Shown in pieces: positions 22,379 through 53,802 of a DNA stretch of 64,000 nucleotides. The DNA is from a virus, in the IMG/VR virus record IMGVR_UViG_3300025466_001309, positions 1-64,000 of that record; one strand, given 5' to 3'. The position numbers were made by a program, and so were the translations under genes. The stretch's first letter is position 1. Each line of letters begins with the position of its first letter. The notes below the pieces were generated by a model. It made no database searches. It saw nothing but the letters and a program-made list of their open reading frames with translations, and had not been told where the DNA came from.

Positions 22379-22384
22379 TAAAAC

Positions 22385-24239: not shown

Positions 24240-24253
24240 TTTTTTTATTATAT

Positions 24254-24328: not shown

Positions 24329-24334
24329 ATAAAT

Positions 24335-24604: not shown

Positions 24605-24623
24605 TTACATTTTCCTTTAATAT

Positions 24624-24702
24624 TGGTCTCCAGTGTGGGATTTGAACTCACATTATTCTTGGTCCCAAACCAAGTGCCATAACCAGATTAGGCGAACCGG
24701 AG
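24624..24702 (-). tRNA. tRNA-Pro(TGG)
   Basis: Acceptor CTCCGGT/ACTGGAG, anticodon arm CTTGG-TTTGGGA-CCAAG giving UGG, CCA encoded. One A-C mismatch in the T-stem and the variable loop is slightly long. Confidence 0.85.
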
Positions 24703-24703
24703 A

Positions 24704-25135: not shown

Positions 25136-25146
25136 AATGATTTTCT

Positions 25147-25217
25147 AGCGGGATGGGAGAATCGAACTCCCGCCAGGAGATTGGAAATCTGCTGTTCTAC
25201 CATTAAACTAATCCCGC
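25147..25217 (-). tRNA. tRNA-Gly(TCC)
   Basis: Acceptor GCGGGAT/ATCCCGC, anticodon loop TTTCCAA giving UCC, T-arm GGGAG-TTCGATT-CTCCC. CCA is not encoded after the discriminator T, in contrast to most others here. Confidence 0.88.
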
Positions 25218-25222
25218 AAACT

Positions 25223-25477
25223 TTATACTGCTTTACCAGTTTTATCTTGTTGATTGGTTAGGTATTTTTCCAATGCTTGTTCGTAGGCTTCTTCTGACAA
25301 ACCGTGCCAGCCACAGCATTTACCATCTGGGCTACGGCCACAACCGCATGATCCGATTTTACTTGTATCTTCTTGTACTCTTACCTGCATTTTATTCTTT
25401 CCAAATATTGAATCGTAGTTTTGACTAAATTGATCTAGACTAACACTATATGGTCTTGGACGACTTCCTTTACTCAT
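25223..25477 (-). CDS. conserved phage protein with CGCGRS...CGWHGL, 84 aa
   Basis: Begins MSKGSRPRPYSVSLDQFSQN and contains CGCGRSPDGKCCGWHGLSEEAY, five cysteines and one histidine that look like a small metal-binding knuckle (perhaps iron-sulfur or zinc). I recall this start and the KCxGWHGL motif from marine phage genes of unknown function. Overlaps the omega-like gene by four bases. Confidence 0.75.
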   Translation of the reverse strand: MSKGSRPRPYSVSLDQFSQNYDSIFGKNKMQVRVQEDTSKIGSCGCGRSPDGKCCGWHGLSEEAYEQALEKYLTNQQDKTGKAV

Positions 25478-25692
25478 ATTTTCCTCAAATAATCTCTGCC
25501 TACTAGGCCTGCTTCAATTTCTGCCAGCGCAGTAATAGTAGTGCCGTTCTTTGTAGCAGTATTTAATAGTGAACGATGTCCACGCTTTAATTCTCGAACA
25601 CGCAATGCGGCCACTAGCACTAGATCAAATCTACTGCCAATATTTTCTACGCATTTATCTGTATTCACATTGTGTCGGGTAATTGATTTCAT
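25474..25692 (-). CDS. rpoZ: RNA polymerase omega subunit-like protein
   Basis: 72 residues. [23 protein letters not shown] (about 16-38) and [14 protein letters not shown] (about 51-64) align with bacterial RpoZ (E. coli [20 protein letters not shown] and TTVIALREIEEGLI). This is the conserved omega core that clamps the beta-prime C-terminus. It is shorter than host omega because the C-terminal helix is missing. Possible role is to bind or replace host omega during infection. Coupled to the neighbouring gene by an ATGA overlap. Confidence 0.85.
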   Translation of the reverse strand: [72 protein letters not shown]

Positions 25693-25727
25693 TGTTTTCC
25701 TTGGGTTATTAAAATGCTCTGCGGTAT

Positions 25728-25853
25728 CTATAAAGTTGCTATTATTTTGTTGACCTGCTGTAAGTCTAAACGCAATCGATGAGCAATTTCACTAGAATCT
25801 AAATTTCTCTCTAACAGTTCTTTAATTTGAGCGATAACATCTTGATATGACAT
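25728..25853 (-). CDS. small helical protein, 41 aa
   Basis: Start at 25853, preceded by AGGAGAAT; the longer frame upstream runs into tRNA-Leu and is rejected. The 41 residues (QIKELLERNLDSSEIAHRLRLDLQQVNKI) resemble a helix-turn-helix, with SSEIAHRLRLDLQQV as the candidate recognition region. A small transcription regulator or RNA polymerase-binding peptide is conceivable next to the omega-like gene. Confidence 0.55.
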   Translation of the reverse strand: MSYQDVIAQIKELLERNLDSSEIAHRLRLDLQQVNKIIATL

Positions 25854-25917
25854 GCGATTCTCCTGAAGTATGCATATACATATATAACGCCTTGACCTCT
25901 CATTTCGTTTACAAATT

Positions 25918-26002
25918 TGGTGCGGGCGGTGAGACTCGAACTCACACACCTTACGGCAATGGCTTCTAAAACCATCTCGGCTACCAGTTACGACACACCC
26001 GC
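25918..26002 (-). tRNA. tRNA-Leu(TAG)
   Basis: Type II tRNA with acceptor GCGGGTG/CGCCCGC (one G-U), anticodon arm ATGGT-TTTAGAA-GCCAT giving UAG, long variable arm and T-arm GTGAG-TTCGAGT-CTCAC; CCA encoded. Confidence 0.88.
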
Positions 26003-26012
26003 ATTTTCCATT

Positions 26013-26172
26013 AGTTGATAGTACTCAAAACTTTACAAGTTTAGCAAATTTCTGAGTGGAGTTCGATTCTCCTCATAAGCCATTGCCCGAGTTATTTCAG
26101 GACTGGAAGATGGCCCTACCAGCCCGCCTAGAGTATGCGTCCATACACGATACCTCTCGAATACTATCAACT
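26013..26172 (-). ncRNA. unidentified structured RNA, about 160 nt
   Basis: No gene crosses this interval. Its ends pair: GTTGATAGTATTC at the 5' end with GAGTACTATCAAC at the 3' end (minus strand), and a consensus promoter starts just upstream. Internal helices: GTATGGACGCATAC; GGGCTGG/CCAGTCC (7 bp around a 12-base loop); GGAG-AATCGAA-CTCC; and AAACT-TGTAA-AGTTT. On the plus strand the third looks like a tRNA T-arm. It lies directly upstream of tRNA-Leu in the same transcript. I cannot match it to tmRNA, 6S, RNase P or SRP RNA. Confidence 0.5.
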
Positions 26173-26186
26173 AATAATATTATATT

Positions 26187-26214
26187 AGTATAACAAATTT
26201 TTATAATCTGTCAA
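26187..26214 (-). promoter_or_regulatory. sigma70-type promoter for the structured RNA and tRNA-Leu
   Basis: TTGACA (26209-26214), 16-base spacer and TATACT (26187-26192) on the minus strand; the predicted start is about 26176-26182, at the outer edge of the terminal helix of the RNA at 26013-26172. Confidence 0.7.
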
Positions 26215-26224
26215 TGCCTTTTTA

Positions 26225-26299
26225 TGGTAACGCTACGGGGAATCGAACCCCGATTGCCAGGATGAAAACCTGGTGACCTAACCGTTAGTCGATAGCGTC
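26225..26299 (-). tRNA. tRNA-Glu(TTC)
   Basis: Acceptor GACGCTA/TAGCGTT, anticodon arm CCAGG-TTTTCAT-CCTGG giving UUC, T-arm CGGGG-TTCGATT-CCCCG and CCA encoded. Confidence 0.9.
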
Positions 26300-26318
26300 A
26301 TTATTATATTTCTGTAAT

Positions 26319-26576
26319 TTATCTCAAAGTTGTAGTCTTATTGTTCAATGGTTGAATTTTCCAATTGGCTTCTCTATTAATATCTCGGACTTCTTTTATA
26401 CAAGTTGTTTTTAGATCTAGATTTTGAATCTTATCACAGTCATTGGCATTGGATGTGGCAACTGCTATACACAATTTTTTCTTTTCAGTATTATGCTCTT
26501 TGACACATTCATCTAAACCATAGGAGGCCCAGCATTGCGAGGCCCTGATAATCAATAATATGACTAGGAATCTCAT
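26319..26576 (-). CDS. small secreted Cys-rich protein, 85 aa
   Basis: N-terminal signal peptide (MRFLVILLIIRASQC, probable cleavage after WAS or a lipobox-like site) followed by about 65 polar residues with four cysteines, so probably disulfide-bonded in the periplasm. No family recognised. A role in superinfection exclusion or lysis timing is possible but speculative. Confidence 0.6.
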   Translation of the reverse strand: MRFLVILLIIRASQCWASYGLDECVKEHNTEKKKLCIAVATSNANDCDKIQNLDLKTTCIKEVRDINREANWKIQPLNNKTTTLR

Positions 26577-26664
26577 AACACTATATTTATTACAATACTG
26601 TAATATTTATAAATTATTTTGTAGGAACTGTCAATCTATAAATATCTTATAAACTACATACATT

Positions 26665-27444
26665 ATGAATAAATTAGAAAATTTTCCTACAGTAACATAC
26701 ATTAATTTACACGAGTCATTAGATCGTAGGACGTTCATGGAAGATCAATGTAAAAAATATGGTTTACAAAGTACTCCATATTTTACCGATAGGTATGATG
26801 TTTTTAAAGATCAAATCGAAATTCGATGTCAGGTATACTGCGATTATCATCAAGGCAACAATATCAGTTATATAAATGCCATGCGGAGATGGTATGATAC
26901 CACTGATGAAGAATATGGTTTTTTCTGTGATGATGACATTAGTTTTGAAACAGTTGATCTATGGAACTTCACCTGGCAGGAATTTATAGATAATCTTCCA
27001 AAAGATTGGCAATGTGTTCAAATGGTTAGAATCAACATCTGGGAAGACGGAATGAAAAATTATGGAATTCTTGAGATACCATCAATACAGATTCGTGAAC
27101 GTGCTTGGAATGACTACGGATGTGCCGCAGTATTTAAAAGAGAATATGTAAAAAAATTATTAGATCGCCATTGGATTTCTAATAATGTCTATAGTTTTAA
27201 TATACCTTCAAGATCTAATTCAGAATATTTTTATTATCCCATAGTTGAAAGTCTACTCTATAGAGAAATCAGCGATGGAGTTTATAACTGTCCATTACTG
27301 TTAGAAAATCAATCATTTGATTCAACAGTGCATTTTGGAGAAGAAGGCCGAATTCCTCATAGGCGTTCATTCAAGATTTATTCAACATTGTGGAACTTAT
27401 ATGGTAATGAACTTCCACTGTCTTATATATTAAACAAATCTTAA
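26665..27444 (+). CDS. GT25-like glycosyltransferase (copy B)
   Basis: 259 residues paralogous to the minus-strand gene at 20505-21245: LHESLDRRTFMEDQCKKYG start, FCDDDISFE site, WNFTWQEFIDNLPKDW and RSYVKK-like REYVKKLLDRH. Opposite orientation to all neighbours and bounded by tRNA genes suggests an independently moved copy. Its acidic site reads DDDIS instead of EDDIS. Confidence 0.8.
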   Translation: MNKLENFPTVTYINLHESLDRRTFMEDQCKKYGLQSTPYFTDRYDVFKDQIEIRCQVYCDYHQGNNISYINAMRRWYDTTDEEYGFFCDDDISFETVDLWNFTWQEFIDNLPKDWQCVQMVRINIWEDGMKNYGILEIPSIQIRERAWNDYGCAAVFKREYVKKLLDRHWISNNVYSFNIPSRSNSEYFYYPIVESLLYREISDGVYNCPLLLENQSFDSTVHFGEEGRIPHRRSFKIYSTLWNLYGNELPLSYILNKS

Positions 27445-27449
27445 TGTCT

Positions 27450-27539
27450 TGGCGGAGAGTGTGGGAGTCGAACCCACTCGACGGCTCATCACCATCGTCG
27501 GATTAGCAATCCGATGCCTTACCATCCGGCCCACTCTCC
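27450..27539 (-). tRNA. tRNA-Ser(GCT)
   Basis: Type II with acceptor GGAGAGT/ACTCTCC, anticodon arm TCGGA-TTGCTAA-TCCGA giving GCU, long variable arm, T-arm GTGGG-TTCGACT-CCCAC and encoded CCA. Confidence 0.88.
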
Positions 27540-27541
27540 TT

Positions 27542-27638
27542 TGGTACGACCGGTAGGTTTCGAACCTACAAAGGCGTTGTCTAAGACTTTGCCCCATCCT
27601 GCCGAAACAGAGGTCTGCCATATTCCACTCACGGTCGT
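27542..27638 (-). tRNA. tRNA-like gene, isotype unassignable
   Basis: Acceptor ACGACCG/CGGTCGT, discriminator A with encoded CCA, and a perfect T-arm GTAGG-TTCGAAA-CCTAC. The 60 bases between cannot be folded into a normal D-arm, anticodon arm and variable arm; the only Leu-like loop (CTTAGAC) has no stem. It may be a decayed Leu tRNA, a tRNA with an insertion, or a different structured RNA. Confidence 0.45.
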
Positions 27639-27644
27639 ATATAC

Positions 27645-27673
27645 AGTATATACTTATTGTGAATGGTTGTCAA
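27645..27673 (-). promoter_or_regulatory. internal sigma70-type promoter of the tRNA cluster
   Basis: TTGACA (27668-27673), 17-base spacer and TATACT (27645-27650) on the minus strand, between tRNA-Ser(TGA) and the tRNA-like gene. It would boost the left part of the cluster. Confidence 0.7.
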
Positions 27674-27678
27674 CTCTA

Positions 27679-27767
27679 TGGAGGAGGGATGGTAGAATCG
27701 AACTCCAACCGCTTCCGCAGTCCATCCGCTTTCAAGGCGGTGCCAGACCCAGTCTGGATAACCCTCC
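27679..27767 (-). tRNA. tRNA-Ser(TGA)
   Basis: Type II with acceptor GGAGGGT/ATCCCTCC-type, anticodon arm ACCGC-CTTGAAA-GCGGA giving UGA, variable arm CTGCGGAAGCGGTT and encoded CCA. Confidence 0.86.
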
Positions 27768-27778
27768 GATGTTGTTGT

Positions 27779-27854
27779 TGGTGGTAATAGTAGGACTCGA
27801 ACCTACGATAGGTTGCGTATGAAGCAACTGCATTTGCCGCTATGCTATATTACC
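27779..27854 (-). tRNA. tRNA-Met or tRNA-Ile2 (CAT)
   Basis: Acceptor GGTAATA/TATTACC, anticodon arm GTTGC-TTCATAC-GCAAC giving CAU, T-arm CGTAG-TTCGAGT-type, CCA encoded. CAU could be elongator Met or, if C34 is lysidylated, AUA-reading Ile; the sequence does not decide. Confidence 0.82.
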
Positions 27855-27912
27855 ATATAGAAACACACTATGCCACGCTCTGAACCTGGACTCTTAGTAA
27901 TGTGTTTTTATA

Positions 27913-27988
27913 TGGTGCGGGCAGGGGGACTCGAACCCTCCAACTTATCGGTTAAAAGCCGATTACTCTACCATTGAGTTATACCCGC
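27913..27988 (-). tRNA. tRNA-Lys(TTT)
   Basis: Acceptor GCGGGTA/TGCCCGC, anticodon arm ATCGG-CTTTTAA-CCGAT giving UUU, T-loop TTCGAGT, CCA encoded. Confidence 0.88.
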
Positions 27989-28034
27989 ATTATCTTCTTG
28001 TCACAGTCCATAGGACTCTCCTTTATTAAAAAAA

Positions 28035-28114
28035 TGGTACCCCGGGCGGGAGTTGAACCCACAGAAAACTTCTCCTTTTGAGAGAGACGACTTTGCCAAT
28101 TTGTCCACCGGGGC
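28035..28114 (-). tRNA. tRNA-Leu(CAA)
   Basis: Acceptor GCCCCGG/CCGGGGT, anticodon arm TCTCT-CTCAAAA-GGAGA giving CAA, T-arm GTGGG-TTCAACT-CCCGC; encoded CCA. Variable arm is short for a Leu tRNA. Confidence 0.85.
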
Positions 28115-28168
28115 ATTAAAAGAACTTCATCGTAGAACTATATTACCAGAGGATGAAGCCGTGTTATC

Positions 28169-28244
28169 TGGTGCCGCCCCCAGGGATCGAACCTAGTTCC
28201 TCGGTGCTTCAAACCGGTGCTATGACCACATCAGCTAAAGCGGC
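28169..28244 (-). tRNA. tRNA-Phe(GAA)
   Basis: Acceptor GCCGCTT/GGGCGGC, four strong anticodon-stem pairs around the loop TTGAAGC giving GAA, T-arm CTAGG-TTCGATC-CCTGG, CCA encoded. Confidence 0.82.
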
Positions 28245-28252
28245 ATTGTTTG

Positions 28253-28325
28253 GGCAGGAGAACGGGATTCGAACCCTGGATAACTGATCCACAATCAGTT
28301 GTGTTACCACTACACTATTCCCTGC
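28253..28325 (-). tRNA. tRNA-His(GTG)
   Basis: Anticodon arm ACTGA-TTGTGGA-TCAGT giving GUG, acceptor GCAGGGA/CTCCTGC with discriminator C as in bacterial tRNA-His. The base before G1 in the genome is C, so the extra G-1 that normally pairs with C73 is not encoded; CCA is not encoded either. Confidence 0.84.
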
Positions 28326-28334
28326 GCATATGTT

Positions 28335-28408
28335 TGGTATCCAGTAGAGGTAACGCTCCTCTGTCTTTCGATTATCAGTCGAATGCTCTACTATTGAGCT
28401 AACCGGAT
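28335..28408 (-). tRNA. tRNA-Ile(GAT)
   Basis: Anticodon arm TTCGA-CTGATAA-TCGAA giving GAU; acceptor ATCCGGT/ACTGGAT; encoded CCA. T-loop reads AGCGTTA, so position 54 is A and 58 is U instead of the usual T54 and A58. Confidence 0.85.
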
Positions 28409-28418
28409 ATGTTATTTC

Positions 28419-28493
28419 TGGTCCGGCTAGGAAGAATCGAACTTCCATTACAAGATTAGAAGTCTCGTGTATTATCCATTATACGATAGCCAG
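28419..28493 (-). tRNA. tRNA-Arg(TCT)
   Basis: Acceptor CTGGCTA/TAGCCGG, anticodon arm CGAGA-CTTCTAA-TCTTG giving UCU, T-arm GGAAG-TTCGATT-CTTCC, CCA encoded. The host AGA codon is often rare, a common reason for phages to carry this tRNA. Confidence 0.88.
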
Positions 28494-28498
28494 TGCAT

Positions 28499-28585
28499 TG
28501 GTGCAAGTACCCGGAGTCGAACCGGGACACCTATAAAGATATCAGATTTTAAGTCTGAGGCGTCTACCTATTCCGCCATACTTGC
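28499..28585 (-). tRNA. tRNA-Leu(TAA)
   Basis: Type II, acceptor GCAAGTA/TACTTGC, anticodon arm TCAGA-CTTAAAA-TCTGA giving UAA, variable arm, T-arm CCCGG-TTCGACT-CCGGG, CCA encoded. Confidence 0.9.
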
Positions 28586-28590
28586 ATGTT

Positions 28591-28666
28591 TGGTGCCCCC
28601 ACTACGATTCGAACGCAGGACCTACTGATTACAAATCAGTTGCTCTACCAACTGAGCTATAAGGGC
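28591..28666 (-). tRNA. tRNA-Thr(TGT)
   Basis: Acceptor GCCCTTA/TGGGGGC, anticodon arm ACTGA-TTTGTAA-TCAGT giving UGU, CCA encoded. Confidence 0.85.
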
Positions 28667-28667
28667 A

Positions 28668-28741
28668 TGGCAGGGGATATAAGAATCGAACTTATGACGA
28701 TGGAATCAAAATCCATTGTTATACCATTTAACTAATCCCCA
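28668..28741 (-). tRNA. tRNA-Gln(TTG)
   Basis: Acceptor TGGGGAT/ATCCCCT (weak first pair, as in Gln tRNAs), anticodon arm ATGGA-TTTTGAT-TCCAT giving UUG, T-loop TTCGATT, discriminator G and CCA. Confidence 0.86.
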
Positions 28742-28751
28742 ACAAAAAACT

Positions 28752-28827
28752 TGGCTCCCCAGGGTGGGCACGATCCACCGACATTTTGATTAACAGTCAA
28801 ACGCTCTACCAACTGAGCTACTGGAGA
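28752..28827 (-). tRNA. tRNA-Asn(GTT)
   Basis: Acceptor TCTCCAG/CTGGGGA, anticodon arm TTTGA-CTGTTAA-TCAAA giving GUU, T-arm GGTGG-ATCGTGC-CCACC with A54 and U58; discriminator G, CCA encoded. Confidence 0.86.
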
Positions 28828-28834
28828 ATAAACT

Positions 28835-28909
28835 TGGCGGTCCCAAGGGGTAACGATCCCCTTCTTCGAGCGTGACAGGCTCGTGTGCGTCCATGAACAC
28901 TTTGAGACC
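28835..28909 (-). tRNA. tRNA-Asp(GTC)
   Basis: Acceptor GGTCTCA/TGGGACC, anticodon arm CGAGC-CTGTCAC-GCTCG giving GUC, T-arm AGGGG-ATCGTTA-CCCCT with the same A54/U58 swap as Asn and Ile; CCA encoded. Confidence 0.86.
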
Positions 28910-28915
28910 TAATCT

Positions 28916-29001
28916 TGGTGGAGGAAGTAAGATTCGAACCTACTCATCCTTAGGAAACAGATTTACAGTCTGCCGCGCCTCTCCAACTGCGCCGTTCCTC
29001 C
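28916..29001 (-). tRNA. tRNA-Tyr(GTA)
   Basis: Type II, acceptor GGAGGAA/TTCCTCC, anticodon arm GCAGA-CTGTAAA-TCTGT giving GUA, variable arm, T-arm GTAGG-TTCGAAT-CTTAC, CCA encoded. First tRNA of the cluster in transcription order, seven bases after the endonuclease gene. Confidence 0.87.
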
Positions 29002-35230: not shown

Positions 35231-35779
35231 ATGGAACACTTTTATCGAGATATACCCGGCTGGTTTAGCTATGAGTACGTATACAGAGACATGGTCAAAC
35301 AAGCCGATGACGATAGTTTATTTGTTGAGATAGGATCTTATAAAGGGATGTCTACAGCATTTATGGCAGTAGAAATTATCAACAGCGGTAAAAACATTCG
35401 TTTCGAATGTATAGATCCGATGGAGATGGGTGTGGGAAGTTGGACCTGTAATGAAGATGAACAGCAAGGATATACTGAAGCAGATTTTAACGAGCGACTT
35501 GCGTCAGTCAAAGGTTATTATAAGCTACACAAAATGTCCAGCAATGATGCTGTAAATTCTTTTGAAGATGGTAGTATAGACTTCCTAATGATCGATGGCG
35601 ATCATAGTTATGAAGCCGTTAAACAAGATATTGAAAATTATCTACCTAAAATGAGGTCAGGCGGATTAATGGTGGGCGATGATGCCTATGAACCCGATAT
35701 TCAGCGAGCATTGGAAGACGCTGCCGGACATCTAAACCCTACAAATAATGGGGTACAGTTTTTTATCAGCATTCCTTAA
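35231..35779 (+). CDS. class I SAM methyltransferase, 182 aa
   Basis: SAM loop FVEIGSYKGMSTAFM (about 32-46), ECIDP and the FLMIDGDHSYEAVKQDI block place it among methyltransferases that act on sugars or small molecules. It ends close to the minus-strand gene that begins here (four-base overlap, convergent). Confidence 0.78.
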   Translation: MEHFYRDIPGWFSYEYVYRDMVKQADDDSLFVEIGSYKGMSTAFMAVEIINSGKNIRFECIDPMEMGVGSWTCNEDEQQGYTEADFNERLASVKGYYKLHKMSSNDAVNSFEDGSIDFLMIDGDHSYEAVKQDIENYLPKMRSGGLMVGDDAYEPDIQRALEDAAGHLNPTNNGVQFFISIP

Positions 35780-36498
35780 CCTGCATCACCGCGTATAGAT
35801 ATTCTAAAGTTGCCCGGTGTTATAAAGACATTGTTTTGTCTTAAATGTAACGCTAGGGCACTTTCTGTATGCCAAGATTGAACTGTCTGAGTAAAAAAGT
35901 TTGTAGTAGCATGGTTGAACATATCACAATAAATGCTCATATGTTCTGAACATGCTATTGCAAACATATCGCACATTTGCGGACTATCTGGGCTTAGATG
36001 TAGGTGCCCTGCAATCTTATTTCTAGGAGTAATTATTGCTATTTTTAAATCCTCTAAATTAATAGTGGAAAGATCTAACTCATCCACCAATCCAATATCT
36101 GGGCGTATCCTTACAATCATATCATACTTGACAGTATTTTCTATTTCAAAATTAAGTCTTAACTGATTAACTTTATAAAGGTTATACCATAATTTGTATG
36201 CAGGAGTAGGAATACCTTGTGGCTCTTTAGGTAACTCTACATAATCACTATCCGATAGTTCAAATGATCTAACAAAATTATTTAGGGGCAACATGGCTTG
36301 TAGATTAGCAGATGCTTGATTAACATCAGTAATCTTCCTCCAGGCATCTGACGGTAATTTATTATGAGGTATATGTTGATTATCTCCGGTGAAATAGCAG
36401 AACCAGTCTGCTTGATCATATCCTTTGATGTTGTTTAATAATAAATTAAAATCATCAGTAAATCTCGGTTGTCCACAAATTAGTATAGCAATTTTCAT
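35776..36498 (-). CDS. SGQPRF-type transferase-like protein (family member 2)
   Basis: 240 residues from the ATG at 36498. AILICGQPRFTDDFNLLLNNIKGYDQADWFCYF, MIVRIRPDIG and SWHTESALALHLRQNN match family members 3 and 5. The CGQPRF replaces SGQPRF. Convergent with the methyltransferase. Confidence 0.68.
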   Translation of the reverse strand: MKIAILICGQPRFTDDFNLLLNNIKGYDQADWFCYFTGDNQHIPHNKLPSDAWRKITDVNQASANLQAMLPLNNFVRSFELSDSDYVELPKEPQGIPTPAYKLWYNLYKVNQLRLNFEIENTVKYDMIVRIRPDIGLVDELDLSTINLEDLKIAIITPRNKIAGHLHLSPDSPQMCDMFAIACSEHMSIYCDMFNHATTNFFTQTVQSWHTESALALHLRQNNVFITPGNFRISIRGDAG

Positions 36499-36502
36499 AA
36501 AA

Positions 36503-37252
36503 TTAATTCCATCTTCTATCAATAGGAAATTGTCTAATATTCGAATTAAAATCTCCTTTGATTGTTTTAATTTTATTTTTAGACAAATGATAAGCCAACA
36601 AAGTTTCTGGATGAAACCAAACACCTGCATCATTGTATTTTTTCATAGAATGAATTGTAGTGGAATAGACATTCATAGCTGGTTCTTTGCCAATAGCTAA
36701 TAAATCATTAGACCAATAATCTCCCACTATACTACTCCACCCATTTGGCACACCATTCCAATCATTTTTAGGCATTATAATTTCATCATCATGTATATTA
36801 AGAGTAGATACATCCAAATATGAATTGATACTAACATCAGATCTTACACGTATGATAAGGTCATATACCACTCCATTAGTTTCCTGATAATGTTTTCTTA
36901 ATTCATTGACCTGAAATATATTATAATGCATCATAAAGACTCTTTCAGGAACGTCAACCCAAAAAAGGTCTTTAACCTGTGGCCATTGCTGAAGATGACT
37001 GTTAGATATTTCAAACCTTTTAATAAAATTATTTTTTGGAAGTTTTGATGATATTTTACCTATTGCCCAGTCTGCATCAAAATTTTCCCAAGAGTCTGAA
37101 AATTGTACTCCTTCTTTAGAAAGAGTTGTATGATTGGTATTAGACAAATAAATGAACCAATCTGCAGATTCATATCCTATTAAATTTTCTAAAAATAAAT
37201 TAAAATCTTGAGTAAATCTTGGTTGTCCCGAAAGTTGTATAGCAATGTTCAT
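36503..37252 (-). CDS. SGQPRF-type transferase-like protein (family member 3)
   Basis: 249 residues, very close to member 5 at 41803-42528 (IAIQLSGQPRFTQDFNLFLENLIGYESADWFIYLSN, LIIRVRSDVSINS, FHPETLLAYHLSKNKIKTIKG). Upstream bases (ATATCAATATTTA...AGAGAATT) are also conserved between the two, so flank and gene were duplicated. Confidence 0.7.
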   Translation of the reverse strand: MNIAIQLSGQPRFTQDFNLFLENLIGYESADWFIYLSNTNHTTLSKEGVQFSDSWENFDADWAIGKISSKLPKNNFIKRFEISNSHLQQWPQVKDLFWVDVPERVFMMHYNIFQVNELRKHYQETNGVVYDLIIRVRSDVSINSYLDVSTLNIHDDEIIMPKNDWNGVPNGWSSIVGDYWSNDLLAIGKEPAMNVYSTTIHSMKKYNDAGVWFHPETLLAYHLSKNKIKTIKGDFNSNIRQFPIDRRWN

Positions 37253-37296: not shown

Positions 37297-38061
37297 ATGA
37301 AAATAGCATTGATAACCAGTGGCCTGCCTAGATTTACACAAGACTTCATTGACTTGATGCATAAGGTAACAGGTTTCTCTGATACAGCAGATTTCTATAT
37401 CTGCATGTGGAAAACCGAATGGGCTACTATTGATGACCAAGCAAGACAAAAAATAGAAAGAATATTGCTACCTAACTATAGATTAGCTAAAATCAAAATA
37501 GTCGATGAACCGCCCTATGAATTGCCACCTCATACATTTAATCTAGCACCCCCTCATCCTGAAAATACAACATGGTGGTATAAACGTATATTTGCACAAT
37601 TTACAGGTCTTGCAATGGCCTACGATTTAATTGATCAAGATTATGATGCCGTGATTAAATTTAGAGTTGATGGATCTATAATGAATCCATTAGATGTTCG
37701 AAGTTTGAATATTGATCAACATCCGTTGATATTTCCATCTAACAATGGTGCCGGATTTGATTTTTGTCCGTTAAGTGATTTATTTTTTGTAGGAACCCCA
37801 GACGCTATGAAATTCTATTGTGATCTCAGCAAAGAGTTTAAAGAATTAGTTCCTGCGGCGGATCCTACTTGGGGAGATTCTGATATTGTCGACGGAACCT
37901 GGACATGGGGTACTGAACACTTAATAGGTTATTATATGAGGAAATATAATTTTCCAATAGCATATGGAGATTTCCAGGTAACTTTAAACACTCAAGGAAG
38001 GTCGAAATATACAGATAGACATCCTCATCATAGAATAGTTGTTGATCCAACCGAAATATAA
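37297..38061 (+). CDS. SGLPRF-type transferase-like protein (family member 4)
   Basis: 254 residues, opposite orientation to members 2 and 3. IALITSGLPRFTQDFIDLM, YDAVIKFRVDGSI and TEHLIGYYMRKYNFPIAYGDF blocks; it retains the acidic FRVDG site. Opens the operon that ends with the RuBisCO-like protein and may be transcribed from the 44-base intergenic space. Confidence 0.68.
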   Translation: MKIALITSGLPRFTQDFIDLMHKVTGFSDTADFYICMWKTEWATIDDQARQKIERILLPNYRLAKIKIVDEPPYELPPHTFNLAPPHPENTTWWYKRIFAQFTGLAMAYDLIDQDYDAVIKFRVDGSIMNPLDVRSLNIDQHPLIFPSNNGAGFDFCPLSDLFFVGTPDAMKFYCDLSKEFKELVPAADPTWGDSDIVDGTWTWGTEHLIGYYMRKYNFPIAYGDFQVTLNTQGRSKYTDRHPHHRIVVDPTEI

Positions 38062-38064
38062 ATT

Positions 38065-38916
38065 ATGACTATTTTATTATTAGGCGACTCACATTCTGAT
38101 ATATTCTTGAGTATACCCAATACTTCAAGATTTGACCTAGGTGCTTGCGAATTAAAAGTATTTACAGCACATAGATTTGTAAATCCCAATGACACAGACC
38201 TTTGGTCAAAATTAACACCTTGGTTTGAACAACAAACAGAAAATAATAAAACATTGATCATAACTTCAGGCGAAATAGATATTCGTGCTCACTATTGGAA
38301 ACACATGTTGCCTTACGGTAATCTACTACAATATATTACAGATAATGCTACAAAATTTTATCACGCATTACAGCAGTTAGTTGAAAAATATAAATTAGAA
38401 CATATAGTAGTTTGGGGTCCTCCTGTAGCCGAAGAACGTGCTCGATATGTTAGTGAATATCCGTTTGGTGGCTCATCTTATACACGAAATCTAATTGTTC
38501 ACTGTTGGAATAGAGAATTTAATAGATTAAGTTTTAATAACTCTACCATTACACTAGCCACAGCATATTATAATTTTATTGATTTTGATACTTATCGAAG
38601 TATAGAACCTTCTGGATCACACGATGGAGTGCACTGGCATCCTAGTAGCGGTCCTACGTTTTGGGAACATTTTATAACACCTGCTATGTCGGGTAATAAA
38701 ATTGTTATTGACAATGAAGATCAAATAGCACTTGTAGAAAAAACATCTACGGGCGAACATCAATATGATACATGGGCACGTACTGACCAAATTATTAGTC
38801 TTGACAATATCAGTAAAAGTGTTATAATTAAAGATAATTCCTATTCCTGGGTTAGGGCAGAACAACGAAATCAATTACCCCAACAATATAGAGAATTAGG
38901 ACTACAAAAAATATGA
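38065..38916 (+). CDS. SGNH-family hydrolase-like protein
   Basis: 283 residues. Block I GDSHSD (about 7-12) and block V HDGVHWHPS near residue 190 are the Ser and Asp/His sites of SGNH/GDSL esterases or O-acetyltransferases; block II/III Gly and Asn residues are less clear. In glycan clusters these proteins de- or O-acetylate sugars. A C-terminal part of about 70 residues is not recognised. Confidence 0.7.
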   Translation: MTILLLGDSHSDIFLSIPNTSRFDLGACELKVFTAHRFVNPNDTDLWSKLTPWFEQQTENNKTLIITSGEIDIRAHYWKHMLPYGNLLQYITDNATKFYHALQQLVEKYKLEHIVVWGPPVAEERARYVSEYPFGGSSYTRNLIVHCWNREFNRLSFNNSTITLATAYYNFIDFDTYRSIEPSGSHDGVHWHPSSGPTFWEHFITPAMSGNKIVIDNEDQIALVEKTSTGEHQYDTWARTDQIISLDNISKSVIIKDNSYSWVRAEQRNQLPQQYRELGLQKI

Positions 38917-39626
38917 ATATCGTAATACCGATGGCTGGCCTAGGCAGCCGCTTTCCCCGAGATAAGTTTTATCTTCCAAAGCCCTTAATTGATGTTAATG
39001 GCAAACCAATGATACAACGTGCAATTGAAAGTCTAGATATAGATGGACAATATTATTTTACTCTAAGAAATGATGAGTTCCTTGGCATACAGAAAGATGT
39101 CATCCGTAAAATTGTCAAAGATCCTGTGTTTATCACAGTTGATAAAACCACAGAAGGGCCTGCTTGTTCGGTCCTGCTATTTAAAGACTATATCAATACA
39201 GATGACGAGTTGGTCACTGCTAATTGCGATCAGGTCATGGATTGGTCAAGTAAGTTATTTTTCCATAATGTTAGACTTTATGACGGTGCGGTAGTAACAT
39301 ATTATAGTGATACTGATAAAAACAGTTACGTTAAGTTAGATCGTACAGGTCGTGCTATACAATTTGCCGAAAAAGAAGTTATCAGCAATATTAGCCTAAA
39401 TGGTATTCATTATTGGAAACAAGGCAAATATTTTGTTGATAGTGCAGAGGCAATGATCGCTGCCAATGACCGTGCACCTAATGGCGAATTTTATATTTCA
39501 ATGACCTATAATTACATGATCGCCGCAGGACTAGAGTGCGGTATATTTCACATACCTAATGAGTGTCATCATGCAGTTGGAGTTCCTGTAGATTTAGAAA
39601 GATTCCTAAAACATGATAAAACATAG
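38913..39626 (+). CDS. sugar-nucleotide transferase (NTP_transferase fold)
   Basis: 237 residues with the nucleotidyltransferase start IVIPMAGLGSRFPRDKFYLPKPLIDVNGKPMIQRAIES: G-x-G-x-R, K and the PKPLI lysine. ANCDQVMDW supplies the metal-binding Asp. It would activate a sugar phosphate or polyol phosphate with CTP, UTP or GTP. Stop overlaps the cupin start by 14 bases, and the cupin overlaps the RuBisCO-like gene by 14, so the three are made together. Confidence 0.88.
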   Translation: MNIVIPMAGLGSRFPRDKFYLPKPLIDVNGKPMIQRAIESLDIDGQYYFTLRNDEFLGIQKDVIRKIVKDPVFITVDKTTEGPACSVLLFKDYINTDDELVTANCDQVMDWSSKLFFHNVRLYDGAVVTYYSDTDKNSYVKLDRTGRAIQFAEKEVISNISLNGIHYWKQGKYFVDSAEAMIAANDRAPNGEFYISMTYNYMIAAGLECGIFHIPNECHHAVGVPVDLERFLKHDKT

Positions 39627-39936
39627 AATAGAAGATTTTACAAGAGGATGGCTCATTGGTAACTTTGAACCGTCTTTATTAAAAACCCCAGATTTTGAAG
39701 TAGGCTTACTAACACATAAAAAAGGTGAAGTATGGCCTAAACATTATCACAAGATAGGCACAGAATACAATGTATTAATCAGTGGCAGTATGACAGTAGA
39801 CGGCACGTTGATGGAACCGGGAGATGTATTTGTATTCCATCCAGACGATATAGCCGATCCTGTTTTTCACGAAGACTGCAAAATATTATGTGTAAAAACC
39901 CCAAGTATACCAGGAGATAAGTATGAAGTTTTATAG
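39613..39936 (+). CDS. cupin-domain protein, 107 aa
   Basis: A small cupin: KHYHKIGTEYNVLISGSMTVDG (metal His/Glu motif) and EPGDVFVFHPDDIAD (second motif with His). These folds act as isomerases, epimerases or lyases on small sugars and polyols. Its tight coupling to the nucleotidyltransferase and the RuBisCO-like protein suggests all three work on the same small sugar or sugar acid. Confidence 0.8.
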   Translation: MIKHRIEDFTRGWLIGNFEPSLLKTPDFEVGLLTHKKGEVWPKHYHKIGTEYNVLISGSMTVDGTLMEPGDVFVFHPDDIADPVFHEDCKILCVKTPSIPGDKYEVL

Positions 39937-41113
39937 AGAAAGACTAGAGATTGATTTAGAAAAATATTATATTGCTACCTATGAAATGGCAAGTTCAACC
40001 TCATTAAAAGATGCGGCTTGGAATTTAGCTATTGGACAGAGTGTAGGTAATCCCAATGTGCGGAACGAATGGGAAACAGATGATCTGTTTGAAAATAACA
40101 GTTGCATCATTGTCGGCAATGAAAAGAAACTAGAAAAATCTACAGAAGGTATTGTAGAGATCGCTTTCCCTGTTATCAACACAGATTGGAAAACTGATGG
40201 TATTAGTCATATGCTTTGTCAATTAATGGGCGGACATGTTGATATTGATATTATTACAAAGTGCCGTTTAGTTAAATTAGAGTTACCAGAGACGGTAACA
40301 AAACATTTTAAAGGTCCAAAGTTTGGCATTACTGGTATTCGTAAGTTTACCAAACAATACGACAAGCCTATTTTTGGTAGCATCGTAAAACCTAAAATTG
40401 GTATTACTCCTAAAGTATTATTAGAAATGGTCAAGCAAATGGTTGACGGTGGAGTTGACTTCATCAAAGAAGATGAGATTATGAGTAATCCTGCTTTCTG
40501 CAAATTAGAAAAACGTGTTGATTTAATTGCCAACTATCTAGCCAAACAAAGTCGTAAAGTTATTTTCTGCCATACTATTAACTGTGATCCACACGTATTG
40601 GTTGACAGAGTTAATATGGTACACCAATTAGGCGGCAACGGTGTCCACATTAATGTGTTCAGCGGCTATGGTGCTTATAACAGTATCCGTAAACAAAATT
40701 TGCCATTGTTCCTGCACTATCAAAGTTCTGGTGCTAAAGTTACTACTGATGTAAATCACAGATTCAGTATCAGCTGGCCTGTTATGTGTCAGTTGGCTAC
40801 ATTGATGGGTGCTGATACAATCCAAACAGGTATGGTTGGAGGATACAGCAATGATGATCCAGAAGAGATTAAACAGTGTTTAGATATCCTACGTGCTGGT
40901 AATACACTACCAACACTGAGCTGTGGTTTCCATCCTGGACTGTTAAATAAAGTATCTAGTATTGCTGGTAATGATTATTTGGCAAATGTAGGTGGTGCTG
41001 TACATGGACATCCAGGCGGTACTCGTGCAGGTGCAACAGCTATGCGTCAAGCCATTGATAAAACCTATGGTCCCGAATATGATGAGGCTATTGCCAAGTG
41101 GGGTCTAGCATAA
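39923..41113 (+). CDS. RuBisCO-like protein (form IV type)
   Basis: 396 residues, the length of RuBisCO large-chain relatives. GSIVKPKIGIT keeps the lysines equivalent to K175 and K177 (K156, K158). GGVDFIKEDE keeps carbamylation-site K182 and metal ligands D184, E185. But substrate-site residues differ: LHYQSS puts Q267/S268 at H294/R295, TIQTG puts Q301 at H327, and the loop-6 lysine K334 is Y308. Thus it should be metal-dependent but not carboxylating, like enolase- or isomerase-type RuBisCO-like proteins. Substrate unknown; position implies a nucleotide-sugar precursor. Confidence 0.92.
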   Translation: MKFYRERLEIDLEKYYIATYEMASSTSLKDAAWNLAIGQSVGNPNVRNEWETDDLFENNSCIIVGNEKKLEKSTEGIVEIAFPVINTDWKTDGISHMLCQLMGGHVDIDIITKCRLVKLELPETVTKHFKGPKFGITGIRKFTKQYDKPIFGSIVKPKIGITPKVLLEMVKQMVDGGVDFIKEDEIMSNPAFCKLEKRVDLIANYLAKQSRKVIFCHTINCDPHVLVDRVNMVHQLGGNGVHINVFSGYGAYNSIRKQNLPLFLHYQSSGAKVTTDVNHRFSISWPVMCQLATLMGADTIQTGMVGGYSNDDPEEIKQCLDILRAGNTLPTLSCGFHPGLLNKVSSIAGNDYLANVGGAVHGHPGGTRAGATAMRQAIDKTYGPEYDEAIAKWGLA

Positions 41114-41140: not shown

Positions 41141-41755
41141 ATGAAATGGCAACAAGATCTAATAAAAGATATAAGAACAAACAGCGGATATGATGATGCA
41201 GACGGAAATGCCGGTGGTCGTATCATTAGAGATATTAAGGGAGATTACACATGGAGAGAATTTTCAGAAGGTAACCGAGAAGCTCTAACTGAATATTTCC
41301 TTAAAACTAAAGATACATGTAGAGCTATCTTAGAAATAGGTGTAGCTAGAAATGCCAGCGAAAGCTCTTGCCATGTGTTTTTAGGTAACAAAAAAGATGA
41401 AACTATCTATGTAGGTATTGATATAGATGATAAAAGTTTTCTCAACGATGCCAATAAGAATATTTTTACTATTCAAAATACCAGCAGTGATGTTGAAAAC
41501 AATATAGAAAAAATTAAATCATTCGGAGTAACGGAATTAGATTTTATTTTCATCGATGGATGGCATAGTATCAATCAAGTCTTAACAGATTGGGAATACA
41601 CTCAGATATTGTCTTCTAACGGAATTGTAGCATTTCACGATATATCCGAGCATCCCGGTCCTTATCACTTTATAAGAAATCTAGATACAAATGTATGGAA
41701 TGTTGATCTACGATGCCTCAATGATTGGGGTATAGGATTTGCCTGGAAAAAATAA
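41141..41755 (+). CDS. class I methyltransferase-like protein (copy 1)
   Basis: 204 residues. KWQQDLIKDIRTN start, CRAILEIGVARNASESS (SAM loop), YVGIDIDDKSF, DFIFIDGWHS and WEYTQILSSNGIVAFHDI: the cephalosporin hydroxylase/rhamnosyl-methyltransferase-like pattern used for sugar methylation. Paralog of the gene at 43136-43762. Confidence 0.78.
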   Translation: MKWQQDLIKDIRTNSGYDDADGNAGGRIIRDIKGDYTWREFSEGNREALTEYFLKTKDTCRAILEIGVARNASESSCHVFLGNKKDETIYVGIDIDDKSFLNDANKNIFTIQNTSSDVENNIEKIKSFGVTELDFIFIDGWHSINQVLTDWEYTQILSSNGIVAFHDISEHPGPYHFIRNLDTNVWNVDLRCLNDWGIGFAWKK

Positions 41756-41802: not shown

Positions 41803-42528
41803 TTAATTCCATTTCGAATCAAGAGGAAATTGTCGAATAGTTGATTCAAAGTTTCCTTTGATTGTTTTAATATTGTTGGCTAGTAGATGATGTCCTAATA
41901 GTGTTTCCGGATGGAAAGCAATACCCGAATCGTTATATTTTTTTATTGAATTCACAATATCACAGTAGGTAGTAACTGATTGATCTTTGCCAATGGCAAA
42001 TTGATCATTGGCCATTAATCCAGGAAATCCAAACCAGCCGTTGCTAGGCATATATATTTCATTGTCATTAATAGTTAGTTGAGACATGTCTATAGGACTG
42101 TTAAGGTTAGAGTCAGATCTTACACGAAGTATAAAATCATATTCAACATTTTGTTGTCTTTGAAAATCTATCCTCAGTTGATTTGATTTTAACAGATTAT
42201 AGTACATCATCCATACTCCCTCTACACTAAATGTACAGTGTACGTTGGATACTGGGGGCCATTGTTGGAGATGACTATCAGAGATTTTAAATCTCTGTAT
42301 AAAATTATTTCTTGGAAGATTTGATGAAATTTTATTTATTGCCCAATCAGCATCAAAATCTTTCCAAGATTGAGAAATCTCTACTCCATCTTTAGTACGA
42401 TGAGTATGAAATTTATTCGACAAATAAATGAACCAATCGGCTTGATCGTATCCTATTAAGTTTTCTAAAAGTAAATTGAAATCTTGAGTAAACCTTGGTT
42501 GTCCGGAAAGTTGTATAGCTATTTTCAT
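41803..42528 (-). CDS. SGQPRF-type transferase-like protein (family member 5)
   Basis: 241 residues, closest relative of member 3 (IAIQLSGQPRFTQDFNLLLENLIGYDQADWFIYLSN, FILRVRSDSNLNS, FHPETLLGHHLLANNIKTIKGNF). Reversed relative to the operon around it. The gene seems to have landed between the debris at 41758-41802 and the HAD-like fragment, splitting the duplicate. Confidence 0.7.
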   Translation of the reverse strand: MKIAIQLSGQPRFTQDFNLLLENLIGYDQADWFIYLSNKFHTHRTKDGVEISQSWKDFDADWAINKISSNLPRNNFIQRFKISDSHLQQWPPVSNVHCTFSVEGVWMMYYNLLKSNQLRIDFQRQQNVEYDFILRVRSDSNLNSPIDMSQLTINDNEIYMPSNGWFGFPGLMANDQFAIGKDQSVTTYCDIVNSIKKYNDSGIAFHPETLLGHHLLANNIKTIKGNFESTIRQFPLDSKWN

Positions 42529-42571: not shown

Positions 42572-42664
42572 GTGAATAAACTTATTATATTTGACCTCAA
42601 CGGGGGTTCTTATAGAAAACAACCCGGACAATTTTTTAAAAAATTATATGAAAGAATAAGATGA
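42572..42664 (+). pseudogene. HAD-like N-terminal fragment, 30 codons
   Basis: GTG-started frame VNKLIIFDLNGGSYRKQPGQ ending in an ATGA overlap with the next gene. IIFDLNG matches the first motif (DxDG-type) of HAD phosphatases but with Asn at the second Asp and no further motif. It looks like the truncated start of a HAD phosphatase, often found beside nucleotidyltransferases in capsule loci. It may still be translated and couple translation of the downstream gene. Confidence 0.45.
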
Positions 42665-43131
42665 TTTTGATAGCACATAGAGGACTTACAGAAGGTCCTG
42701 ACTCAGAATTAGAAAATCGTCCAGACCAGATACTTAACAGCCTAGCCAAAGGATATCACTGTGAGATTGATGTTAGATTTATCAATAAAAAATGGATGCT
42801 AGGCCACGATAATCCAGACTACGAAGTTTCATTTGAATTTTTAGAACAACCAAATTTATGGATCCATGCTAAAAATCTAGATGCATTGTATATACTAGGT
42901 GCTAGTAGAAAATTAAACTTCTTCTGGCATCAAGAAGATGATTTTACTTTAACTAGTCAAGGATATATTTGGACATATCCGGGACATGAATTAACTGAAG
43001 ACAGCGTTATGGTCATGCCGGAGTATGTTGACTCAACATTAGAAAATGCTTATACAGCAGAATGCTATGCGATCTGTTCTGACTACATTACCAAAATTGA
43101 ATTAGAACGCAACAAATTAAACAAGGAATAA
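42661..43131 (+). CDS. glycerophosphodiester phosphodiesterase-like protein
   Basis: 156 residues starting MILIAHRGLTEGPDSELENRPDQILNSL, the HR-G-x10-EN motif of the PI-PLC/GDPD fold, then CEIDVRF and a later WMLGHDNPDYEV (catalytic His). About half the normal GDPD length; the single His-Arg start and missing C-terminal strands make it a minimal version of the type seen in capsule loci with nucleotidyltransferases. It may cleave a phosphodiester of a sugar or polyol. Confidence 0.72.
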   Translation: MILIAHRGLTEGPDSELENRPDQILNSLAKGYHCEIDVRFINKKWMLGHDNPDYEVSFEFLEQPNLWIHAKNLDALYILGASRKLNFFWHQEDDFTLTSQGYIWTYPGHELTEDSVMVMPEYVDSTLENAYTAECYAICSDYITKIELERNKLNKE

Positions 43132-43135: not shown

Positions 43136-43762
43136 ATGAAATGGCAACAAGACTTAAATTATGATATTAGATTTCATAATGAAAAAGATGATTATGATGG
43201 AGGAAGTTGGCAAGGATTCCCCCATCCCCAAGGATATGAGAGTGGCCATTCGGGTGAATTCACTGTAGAAAATAAAAAATACATTGAAAAGTATTTTGAC
43301 TATGTAAAAAGAAATTGTCGTGCTATTTTAGAAATAGGTGTTTGTCGTAACTCATCTTATAGTTCTACACATTCATTTTTAAAATATAAAAATCCAGAAA
43401 CAATTTATGTTGGTATTGATTTAGACGATAAAAGTTTTCTAAATGATCCTGCCAATAATGTTTATACAATTAAAAATACCAGCAGTAACATTAATCAGAA
43501 CATGGAAATGATGCAATCATTTGGTGTTACAAAGTTCGATTTTATCTTCATCGATGGATTACACAGTGTTAATCAGGTATTAATTGATTGGGAATATACA
43601 AAATGGTTAGGTCAAGGTGGTATGGTAGGATTTCATGATGTTACTTGTCACCCCGGACCTCAAAGATTTGTAGAAGCACTAAACACTGATAAATGGAATG
43701 TAGAGAAAAATCTATGCCCTGAAGATTGGGGTATTGGTTTTGCATGGCCCAGACATTATTAA
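43136..43762 (+). CDS. class I methyltransferase-like protein (copy 2)
   Basis: 208 residues, close paralog of the gene at 41141 (KWQQDLNYDIR, CRAILEIGVCRNSSYSS, YVGIDLDDKSFLND, DFIFIDGLHSVNQVLIDWEYTKWL, GFHDVTCHPGP). Starts four bases after the phosphodiesterase-like gene. Confidence 0.78.
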   Translation: MKWQQDLNYDIRFHNEKDDYDGGSWQGFPHPQGYESGHSGEFTVENKKYIEKYFDYVKRNCRAILEIGVCRNSSYSSTHSFLKYKNPETIYVGIDLDDKSFLNDPANNVYTIKNTSSNINQNMEMMQSFGVTKFDFIFIDGLHSVNQVLIDWEYTKWLGQGGMVGFHDVTCHPGPQRFVEALNTDKWNVEKNLCPEDWGIGFAWPRHY

Positions 43763-47767: not shown

Positions 47768-48649
47768 CTATACTTTATATCTAATATATTCTGTAATAAG
47801 GTCAGCTACATCTATACCGCAGTATTTTTCAAATCCACTGAATCCTGGATTGCTGTTGGCTTCACAAACACGAAACCCTCGGCTATCAAATAATAGATCA
47901 ATACCACCTATGGTTAGTCCCAGTACACGAGCAGTTTCTCGGGCAATATAATCAATCTCCGGAGTAACTTCAAAACCAGATCCGGTACCACCATTGGTTA
48001 TGTTAGCACGGAAGTCGCCTTCTGGTGCGGTACGCTTCATTGCACCTGCTACCTTACCACCTATGACTAACACACGTAGATCTTCACCAGGTGCATCTCC
48101 AAGATATTCTTGAACTAAAAGAGTCTTTTTATTGCCTAAACTCTCCACAAATTCAACAAGTTTCTTATAATCTTTCTTCTTTTCGCATAGATAAACACCA
48201 GCACCATAACTACCTGTGACTACTTTAACAACGCATGGATAGCCAATATTTTCATTGATTAATTTTTCATTGAATGGAAAGCGTACCATCATAGTGTTGG
48301 GTATAGCAATACCAGACCTGCTGAGTATCTGACTTGTACGCATTTTGTCCTTGACAGTAGATATGCTTTCACTGCCATTGATAACCAACACCCCCGCTTG
48401 TTCAAAATGTCTTAATACTGCTAGCTGGAATGGAAGTATACCTGCACCTAGTCTAACCAATACAAGTTTAGGAAGTTCGATCTCTTCACCCTTATATTTG
48501 ATACCTTTTTTAATATCACGATCAACAATAATATCAAAATCGTCGGGATGGCAGACTCTAACAGAAATATCTTTTTGTGTAAAACTGTCAACAAGCCTGC
48601 TGGTCTCGTAGTCAGTAACAGCCTGTTTGGTTATAATAATTACGCTCAT
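47768..48649 (-). CDS. rimK: RimK-like ATP-grasp ligase
   Basis: 293 residues. ATP-grasp order: VLVRLGAGILPFQLAVL N-domain, KMRTSQILSRSGIAIPNTMMV, CVVKVVTGSYGAGVYLCE (ATP lid, glycine-rich), LVQEYLGDAPGEDLRVLVIGG, and VCEANSNPGFSGFEKYCGID with the Mg-binding Glu/Asn. RimK-type enzymes add Glu or other amino acids to a protein or peptide C-terminus. Possible phage use: modifying a host ribosomal or RNA polymerase protein. Ends in a clear hairpin terminator. Confidence 0.9.
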   Translation of the reverse strand: MSVIIITKQAVTDYETSRLVDSFTQKDISVRVCHPDDFDIIVDRDIKKGIKYKGEEIELPKLVLVRLGAGILPFQLAVLRHFEQAGVLVINGSESISTVKDKMRTSQILSRSGIAIPNTMMVRFPFNEKLINENIGYPCVVKVVTGSYGAGVYLCEKKKDYKKLVEFVESLGNKKTLLVQEYLGDAPGEDLRVLVIGGKVAGAMKRTAPEGDFRANITNGGTGSGFEVTPEIDYIARETARVLGLTIGGIDLLFDSRGFRVCEANSNPGFSGFEKYCGIDVADLITEYIRYKV

Positions 48650-53511: not shown

Positions 53512-53802
53512 TTATTTATTATATTTGGATTCAAAATCATTGTCAACATGATCTGCTGTAGAAGTTTTGCCATTTAATGCTTGTTGATAACGTTCTCTAT
53601 GCTCTTTGATATCAAATTCTACCGGTGCTTGTAATAGTTTGAATACAGGATGTAGAAGTTTTTGTGTAATTCTACGACTCATATCTTCCATGACTTTGAC
53701 TTCATCTTCACCCTCGGCAATTCTCTGCAGGGCAATACCGCGTTCATACATATCAACACGGTGGCTCCATGATTCAAAATTCTCACCCTCTCTAAGTTTC
53801 AT
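53512..53802 (-). CDS. conserved phage protein (MKLREGENFESW type), 96 aa
   Basis: The start MKLREGENFESW, the IALQRIAEGEDEVKVMEDMSRRITQKLLHPVF segment and the C-terminal ADHVDN are familiar from T4-like marine phages. RRITQKLLHP faintly resembles the end of the glutamyl-tRNA reductase dimerisation domain (R..T.KLLH.P), which may be chance. Function unknown. Confidence 0.65.
   Translation of the reverse strand: MKLREGENFESWSHRVDMYERGIALQRIAEGEDEVKVMEDMSRRITQKLLHPVFKLLQAPVEFDIKEHRERYQQALNGKTSTADHVDNDFESKYNK

Follow-up and report, generated by a model that had tools for sequence, protein, structure and literature searches.

A RuBisCO-like protein encoded beside a nucleotidyltransferase in phages, bacteria and archaea

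Introduction

What does a homologue of RuBisCO do in a viral gene cluster, encoded directly behind a nucleotidyltransferase (NTase) and a small cupin? We addressed this question for a RuBisCO-like protein (RLP) in a viral DNA stretch of 64,000 nucleotides, positions 1-64,000 of IMG/VR virus record IMGVR_UViG_3300025466_001309 (hereafter, the window). This RLP belongs to a separate clade of the RuBisCO superfamily that is found beside the same NTase family in phages, bacteria and archaea, and near the NTase it alternates with HAD domains. We propose, with our confidence evenly divided, that it is a catalytically competent, Mg-dependent, non-carboxylating RuBisCO-fold enzyme in a module for nucleotide-activated glycan precursors, consisting of the NTase, the cupin, a mini-GDPD (a small protein of glycerophosphodiester phosphodiesterase fold) and often a Methyltransf_24 methyltransferase, and that it supplies the sugar or polyol phosphate used by the NTase.

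To our knowledge, RLPs of known function serve sulfur salvage or sugar-acid breakdown. If the proposal is true, this clade would hold the first RuBisCO-fold enzyme in activated-sugar biosynthesis, and one group of RuBisCO homologues from the environment, which automatic annotation may take for carbon-fixation genes, would gain a function; phages that carry the RLP could be mistaken for CO2-fixing viruses.

Results

Organization of the locus

The module members in the window are the following:

38913-39626, plus strand: NTase, 237 amino acids, the stand-alone form of the phrog_3980 family, of sugar-1-phosphate nucleotidylyltransferase type
39613-39936, plus strand: small single-domain cupin, 107 amino acids, matching phrog_24762 (4e-32)
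39912-39916, plus strand: AGGAG, a putative ribosome-binding-type sequence for the RLP
39923-41113, plus strand: RLP, 396 amino acids, member of a distinct clade, matching RuBisCO_large (1e-39)
42661-43131, plus strand: mini-GDPD, about 150 amino acids, a frequent fourth member of the module

These coordinates confirm the two overlaps of 14 nucleotides, NTase/cupin and cupin/RLP, that the initial annotation of this DNA had described, all three open reading frames lying on the plus strand. The AGGAG stands 6 nucleotides 5' of the RLP ATG, within the cupin codons for the C-terminal PGDKYEV. Overlap recurs among relatives: 24 of 28 adjacent cupin/RLP pairs overlap by 4-20 nucleotides, 14 being the commonest length (12 pairs), and NTase and cupin overlap in 30 of 33 adjacent pairs.

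Fold and active site of the RuBisCO-like protein

The window RLP matches the RuBisCO large-chain catalytic domain, a TIM barrel (PF00016, Pfam RuBisCO_large), at 136.9 bits against a cut-off of 30.1, and solved RuBisCOs and RLPs match it over its length. Its AlphaFold model (predicted local distance difference test, pLDDT, 90) aligns with both the 2,3-diketo-5-methylthiopentyl-1-phosphate (DK-MTP-1-P) enolase 2oem and the Pyrococcus RuBisCO 2cwx at a Z of about 42 (VIA-align), the former over 365 residues with a root mean square deviation of 2.5; a viral structure library held no RuBisCO-fold match to the model. The model thus indicates a genuine RuBisCO-fold protein. Where it can be measured, the ratio of nonsynonymous to synonymous change (dN/dS) lies at 0.05-0.08, and synonymous sites are saturated or nearly so. 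Because nonsynonymous change is low in the face of such saturation, we conclude that the RLP is under strong constraint, and this ratio together with the RuBisCO_large match (1e-39) argues that the frame is not a chance one.

We then aligned 57 relatives (35 phage, 22 cellular) with form I, II and III references and compared their active sites. Reference residues K175, K177, K201, D203, E204, S379, G381 and G403 are kept in 57/57. The carbamate lysine K182, the metal ligands D184 and E185, and K156-P-K158 of the window protein, which the initial annotation had singled out as kept, are invariant across the same relatives, and K182 is predicted from its position to be carbamylatable. The family also shares its losses, with N123, H294 and the loop-6 lysine K334 replaced by Gly, Gln and Tyr in every relative. 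In the window RLP the replacements are N123 by G104, H294 by Q267, R295 by S268, H298 by A271, H327 by Q301 and K334 by Y308; E60 and T65 are replaced as well, the loss of T65 being family-wide. Substitutions at H294, R295, H327 and loop 6 had been noted before, and all four stand for the window protein, but those at R295 and H327 do not extend to the family. Because cellular relatives have Lys or His at these positions (Lys at R295 in 21/22 cellular and 9/35 phage relatives, His at H327 in 22/22 and 3/35, respectively), the Ser and Gln seen here are mainly a property of the window's phage branch. The window RLP therefore lacks the whole carboxylase set of N123, H294, R295, H298 and K334, in agreement with the earlier view that it is not a carboxylase. 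The metal-carbamate machinery thus appears intact, and the carboxylation residues have been lost.

Phylogeny and distribution

In an 81-sequence tree, the family (35 rows) makes up one side of a single branch with a Shimodaira-Hasegawa-like approximate likelihood ratio (SH-aLRT) support of 100, which separates it from forms I, II and III, MtnW, OiaX, plasmid acid-sugar RLPs and the RLPs of a search of the phylum Bacteroidota. This was a quick, midpoint-rooted tree that does not fix the deeper order; within it the RLP stands outside the sampled clades of known function, one of the two points on which the initial annotation had let its reading depend. Profile scores are likewise separated by a gap, members reaching at least 290 bits and all other RuBisCOs and RLPs at most 206, and the family has a signature of AIGQSxGNP, MGG(Q/H)xDI, FIKEDEI, Q(K/S)SG(D/A), GMxGGY and SCG.

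RLP relatives occur on at least 55 IMG/VR contigs, and none was matched among the 50,697 phage records of INPHARED. The scanned GTDB genomes yielded 23 bacterial or archaeal loci, carried by SAR11 single cells, a Crocinitomicaceae, Legionella, Azospirillum, Verrucomicrobiia, Elusimicrobia, Patescibacteria, Sphingobacteriales and DPANN-type archaea (nanoarchaea). Cellular relatives from SAR11, Legionella, nanoarchaea, Verrucomicrobiia and Elusimicrobia show 36-57% identity and mostly have an NTase adjoining. Because RLP and NTase stand side by side in bacteria and archaea too, the module is not phage-specific, and the phage setting first assigned to it is not supported in that wording. The gene is rare in cells, with 3/297 SAR11 and 4/22 Legionella-genus genomes carrying it, seed genomes included. 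One SAR11 copy (locus L072) has flanking genes that we take, from their sequences, to be ThyX on one side and Mrp and HflK/C on the other; because it lies between housekeeping genes, we regard this copy as chromosomal. The SAR11 clusters (L067-L073) also have another NTase 5' of the RLP, highly diverged at about 27% identity. At L048 (10001-11167), the RLP frame falls into two parts, through either a broken copy or an assembly error.

Linkage of the RLP with its partner genes

To measure linkage, we counted genes within 6 kb of the RLP at 59 non-redundant loci and found the NTase at 55, the mini-GDPD at 36, the cupin at 31 and a Methyltransf_24 gene at 22, these last 22 being phage loci. Because the 59 loci had been chosen by their RLP, we also ran scans seeded by the other genes. 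Seeding with the cupin only gave 13 loci, and RLP, NTase and mini-GDPD were present at 13/13; seeding with the NTase recovered the RLP at 28/78 loci, and at 20/21 of those with the closest NTases. The GDPD-seeded scan found the RLP at only 4/80 best loci, indicating that the mini-GDPD belongs to a wider module. This small protein is very common in viral contigs, with at least 600 matches, and its best 80 loci (L201-L280) have the NTase family at 71/80 and HAD at 51/80.

The link to the NTase drawn in the initial annotation is thus real and strong, and the trio is indeed co-located in related phages. The trio is not the fixed unit it was taken for: gene order changes, glycosyltransferases can intervene, and the cupin is sometimes missing. 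The RLP lies 5' of the NTase in L026, L028, L038, L039, Legionella and Verrucomicrobiia. Similarly, the three-gene set described at the outset is present, but it leaves out the frequent mini-GDPD and the alternation with HAD described below. The window RLP is surrounded by genes with glycosyltransferase and methyltransferase matches, and cellular RLPs have glycosyltransferases, nucleoside diphosphate (NDP)-sugar epimerases, WavE, LicD and methyltransferases as neighbours. Membership of the RLP in an NTase/glycan pathway is well supported. We considered the phosphopolyol transferase LicD as a general clue to a cytidine diphosphate-polyol and rejected it, as it adjoins only three close Legionella copies and occurs in none of nine long phage contigs.

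The partners themselves retain the residues of their families. The window NTase matches Pfam NTP_transf_3 (7e-6) and NTP_transferase (9e-5) as well as phrog_3980 (5e-56), and its closest solved relative is the nucleoside-diphosphate-sugar pyrophosphorylase 4evw (family profile, 5e-34). It carries the N-terminal GxGxRF...KPL motif and the catalytic Asp; across 19 relatives, G9, G11, R13, F14 and D106 do not vary, and K23 hardly does. Across 78 cupin relatives, motif 1 is kept (H44 in 100%, H46 in 91%, E51 in 100%) and the His of the second motif is not conserved. The mini-GDPD model (pLDDT 95) aligns with the P. furiosus GDPD 7e0v at a Z of 11, and its catalytic-type HRG/EN/ExD/GHD residues H6, E18, N19, E35, D37, H49 and D50 are invariant; Pfam GDPD matches neither the window protein nor the scanned relatives.

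Alternation with HAD domains

The NTase family occurs as a HAD-NTase fusion of about 458 amino acids, whose HAD resembles beta-phosphoglucomutase, as an NTase-HAD fusion of about 366, and in the stand-alone form of about 237. De-duplication of the NTases from scans that had used seeds other than the RLP left 120, and an RLP is nearby for 0/76 of those with HAD and for 19/44 without (Fisher 2e-10, indicative only, since related loci are counted as independent). On a tree of 147 NTase domains, RLP and HAD replace each other as the partner at least seven times, and at least four switches of the RLP label are required by branches with strong support. Read most simply, this means that RLP and HAD feed the same NTase step. 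Because other versions of the module have a HAD, either beta-phosphoglucomutase-like or C-terminal, where this one has the RLP, the RLP very likely shares with the HAD either the phosphorylated intermediate or the step immediately ahead of the NTase. The alternation also offers a direct route to finding the substrate.

Proposed function

We infer that the RLP is probably an enolising enzyme, the initial annotation having likewise proposed an enolase, isomerase or epimerase, and that the sugar or polyol phosphate activated by the NTase is made or altered by it. Carbamylated K182, with D184 and E185, would bind Mg2+ and polarise the carbonyl of a keto-sugar or keto-polyol phosphate, and the K182 carbamate and K156 may shuttle protons via an enediolate to give an isomer or epimer. 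The NTase would then put a nucleoside monophosphate on the resulting phosphate, and glycosyl- or phosphoglycosyl-transferases would take the product into a surface glycan. We are slightly more reserved, a little short of an even judgement, about the wider claim that this is a new functional class of the RuBisCO superfamily in phages, bacteria and archaea, supplying surface glycans with a nucleotide-activated sugar or polyol not known before, and repeatedly swapped with HAD phosphatase/mutase domains.

Several points weigh against the proposed step before the NTase. The substrate proposed here is a candidate class deduced from sequence, model and gene context, and the RLP could act after the NTase instead. 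HAD phosphatase/mutase chemistry differs from that of the RuBisCO fold, which weakens the same-step reading, and the alternation might reflect two different sugars that feed one shared route. A few loci (L033-L036, L042) have both RLP and HAD, and HAD was detected by blastp at 1e-4, a threshold that misses divergent HADs. Further, NTases of 382-391 amino acids (L222, L223, L226, L230, L242, L253, L262, L265, L268) have an additional domain, unmatched by either HAD query, that is possibly a third alternative to RLP and HAD.

Alternative explanations

The rival that survives best, though we think it unlikely, is that the RLP breaks or makes a C-C bond in the manner of OiaX, whose substrate is 3-oxo-isoapionate 4-phosphate, as a decarboxylase or retro-aldol type enzyme, leaving a shortened or branched sugar phosphate for the NTase. 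OiaX shares the Gly at N123 with the RLP family, and its model scores 9e-44 on the window RLP, though far below cut-off (150 against 700). However, OiaX lies in another clade, is without K177 and retains H294, R295 and K334, and the module neighbours that we tallied included none of the catabolic partners (four-carbon acid sugar kinase, aldo/keto reductases) that accompany plasmid RLPs of the OiaX branch.

Somewhat more doubtful is an action after the NTase, on a nucleotide-bound keto-sugar or keto-polyol. The RLP gene does come after NTase and cupin in the window and in many relatives, and NDP-sugar epimerases are common neighbours, but this order is inconstant, the RLP sometimes lying 5' of the NTase, and the exchange of RLP for HAD suggests a step at which phosphate is handled. 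Moreover, the RuBisCO-fold enzymes of known function that we are aware of use free sugar phosphates.

We would rank just below it the idea that the RLP replaces HAD as a remover of phosphate, enolising a bisphosphate and beta-eliminating one phosphate to leave a monophosphate or a deoxy-dicarbonyl phosphate for the NTase. Mutual exclusion of RLP and HAD fits this idea, as does the side reaction in which RuBisCO beta-eliminates phosphate from its enediol; cellular members also have Lys at R295, His at H327 and S379 at the second phosphate site. Against it, bisphosphate binding is weakened by the loss of R295 and H327 (to Ser and Gln) in the window branch and of K334 and T65 in all.

Two further explanations are very improbable. 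A working carboxylase, or a decayed and functionless RuBisCO, would share the fold and the carbamate lysine, but the replaced residues N123, H294, R295, H298 and K334 are all needed for carboxylation, and decay is opposed by strong purifying selection and the invariant metal site. A structural or regulatory NTase partner with no catalysis of its own would suit the gene overlaps, which hint at a complex, but not metal-site residues that are all invariant family-wide. Weakest of all and strongly disfavoured is the methionine-salvage enzyme MtnW (DK-MTP-1-P enolase), for which 2oem is the best structural match by a small margin and NCBIfam PRK09549 scores 1.6e-47 on the window RLP, but whose curated equivalog cut-offs are far from reached (161.9 against 409; 123.1 against 513.6), which forms a separate clade differing at H294 and K177, and whose fellow mtn genes were not seen among the neighbours examined, where neighbour clusters and a Pfam scan give glycan genes. 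The methionine-salvage and carboxylase readings were accordingly dropped on residues, scores and tree.

Relation to known systems

Form IV RLPs (MtnW, the IV-Photo or R. rubrum type, OiaX and acid-sugar RLPs, and IV-GOS) resemble the present family in having a RuBisCO fold, keeping the carbamate Lys and the metal acidic residues, and having lost carboxylation residues. By contrast, the present family is a separate clade with its own signature, and it is found with NTase, cupin and GDPD genes instead of salvage or catabolic ones. IV-GOS is a named RLP group (PMC10173188), and ocean data have revealed new RuBisCO groups without function (PMC1821046). Our clade may be the same as IV-GOS, which is named after Global Ocean Sampling, or may contain it; its marine SAR11 relatives make identity possible.

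The glycan clusters of the cyanophages Bellamy, SynMITS9220M01 and DSL-LC03, of NTase-HAD/cupin/GDPD type, have the same NTase family (phrog_3980), partly the same cupin (phrog_24762) and a GDPD-annotated gene; they differ in that a HAD or phosphatase is annotated and there is no RLP. Earlier reports describe viral RbcL and RbcL-like genes as putative auxiliary genes for carbon fixation (PMC12607003, citing a Great Salt Lake study, PMC8506154). These too are RuBisCO homologues on viral contigs, and their descriptions, on which we base the comparison, mention no link to an NTase module. Among the papers searched, we found no report of an RLP tied to a nucleotidyltransferase or glycan module. 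We therefore present the family as a RuBisCO superfamily variant with a proposed function, whose tie to sugar activation suggests that the fold has a use not recognised so far.

Other features of the window

The viral origin of the window rests on the IMG/VR record and on matches to phage families; the window proteins scanned with PHROGs include no structural hallmark genes. Around the module lie three further genes:

38065-38916, plus strand: open reading frame 5' of the NTase, possibly SGNH-hydrolase-like, from its GDSH motif only
41141-41755, plus strand: Methyltransf_24 methyltransferase directly 3' of the RLP (Pfam 4.5e-6)
43136-43762, plus strand: second Methyltransf_24 gene of the same stretch (Pfam 9e-7)

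The first of these overlaps the NTase by 4 nucleotides, has no Pfam or PHROG match and is not conserved with the module. Four diverged copies of phrog_13607, whose function is not annotated, are found on either strand around the module (35776-36633, 36503-37252, 37297-38061 and 41803-42528). Elsewhere, the window has 23 tRNA genes in a row (21258-29001, minus strand), covering most amino acids, and genes for a GTP cyclohydrolase (15031-15852), a UDP-glucose dehydrogenase-like protein (15914-16780), a ribosomal protein S6 glutaminyl transferase-like protein (47768-48649) and a D-Ala-D-Ala carboxypeptidase (53799-54614).

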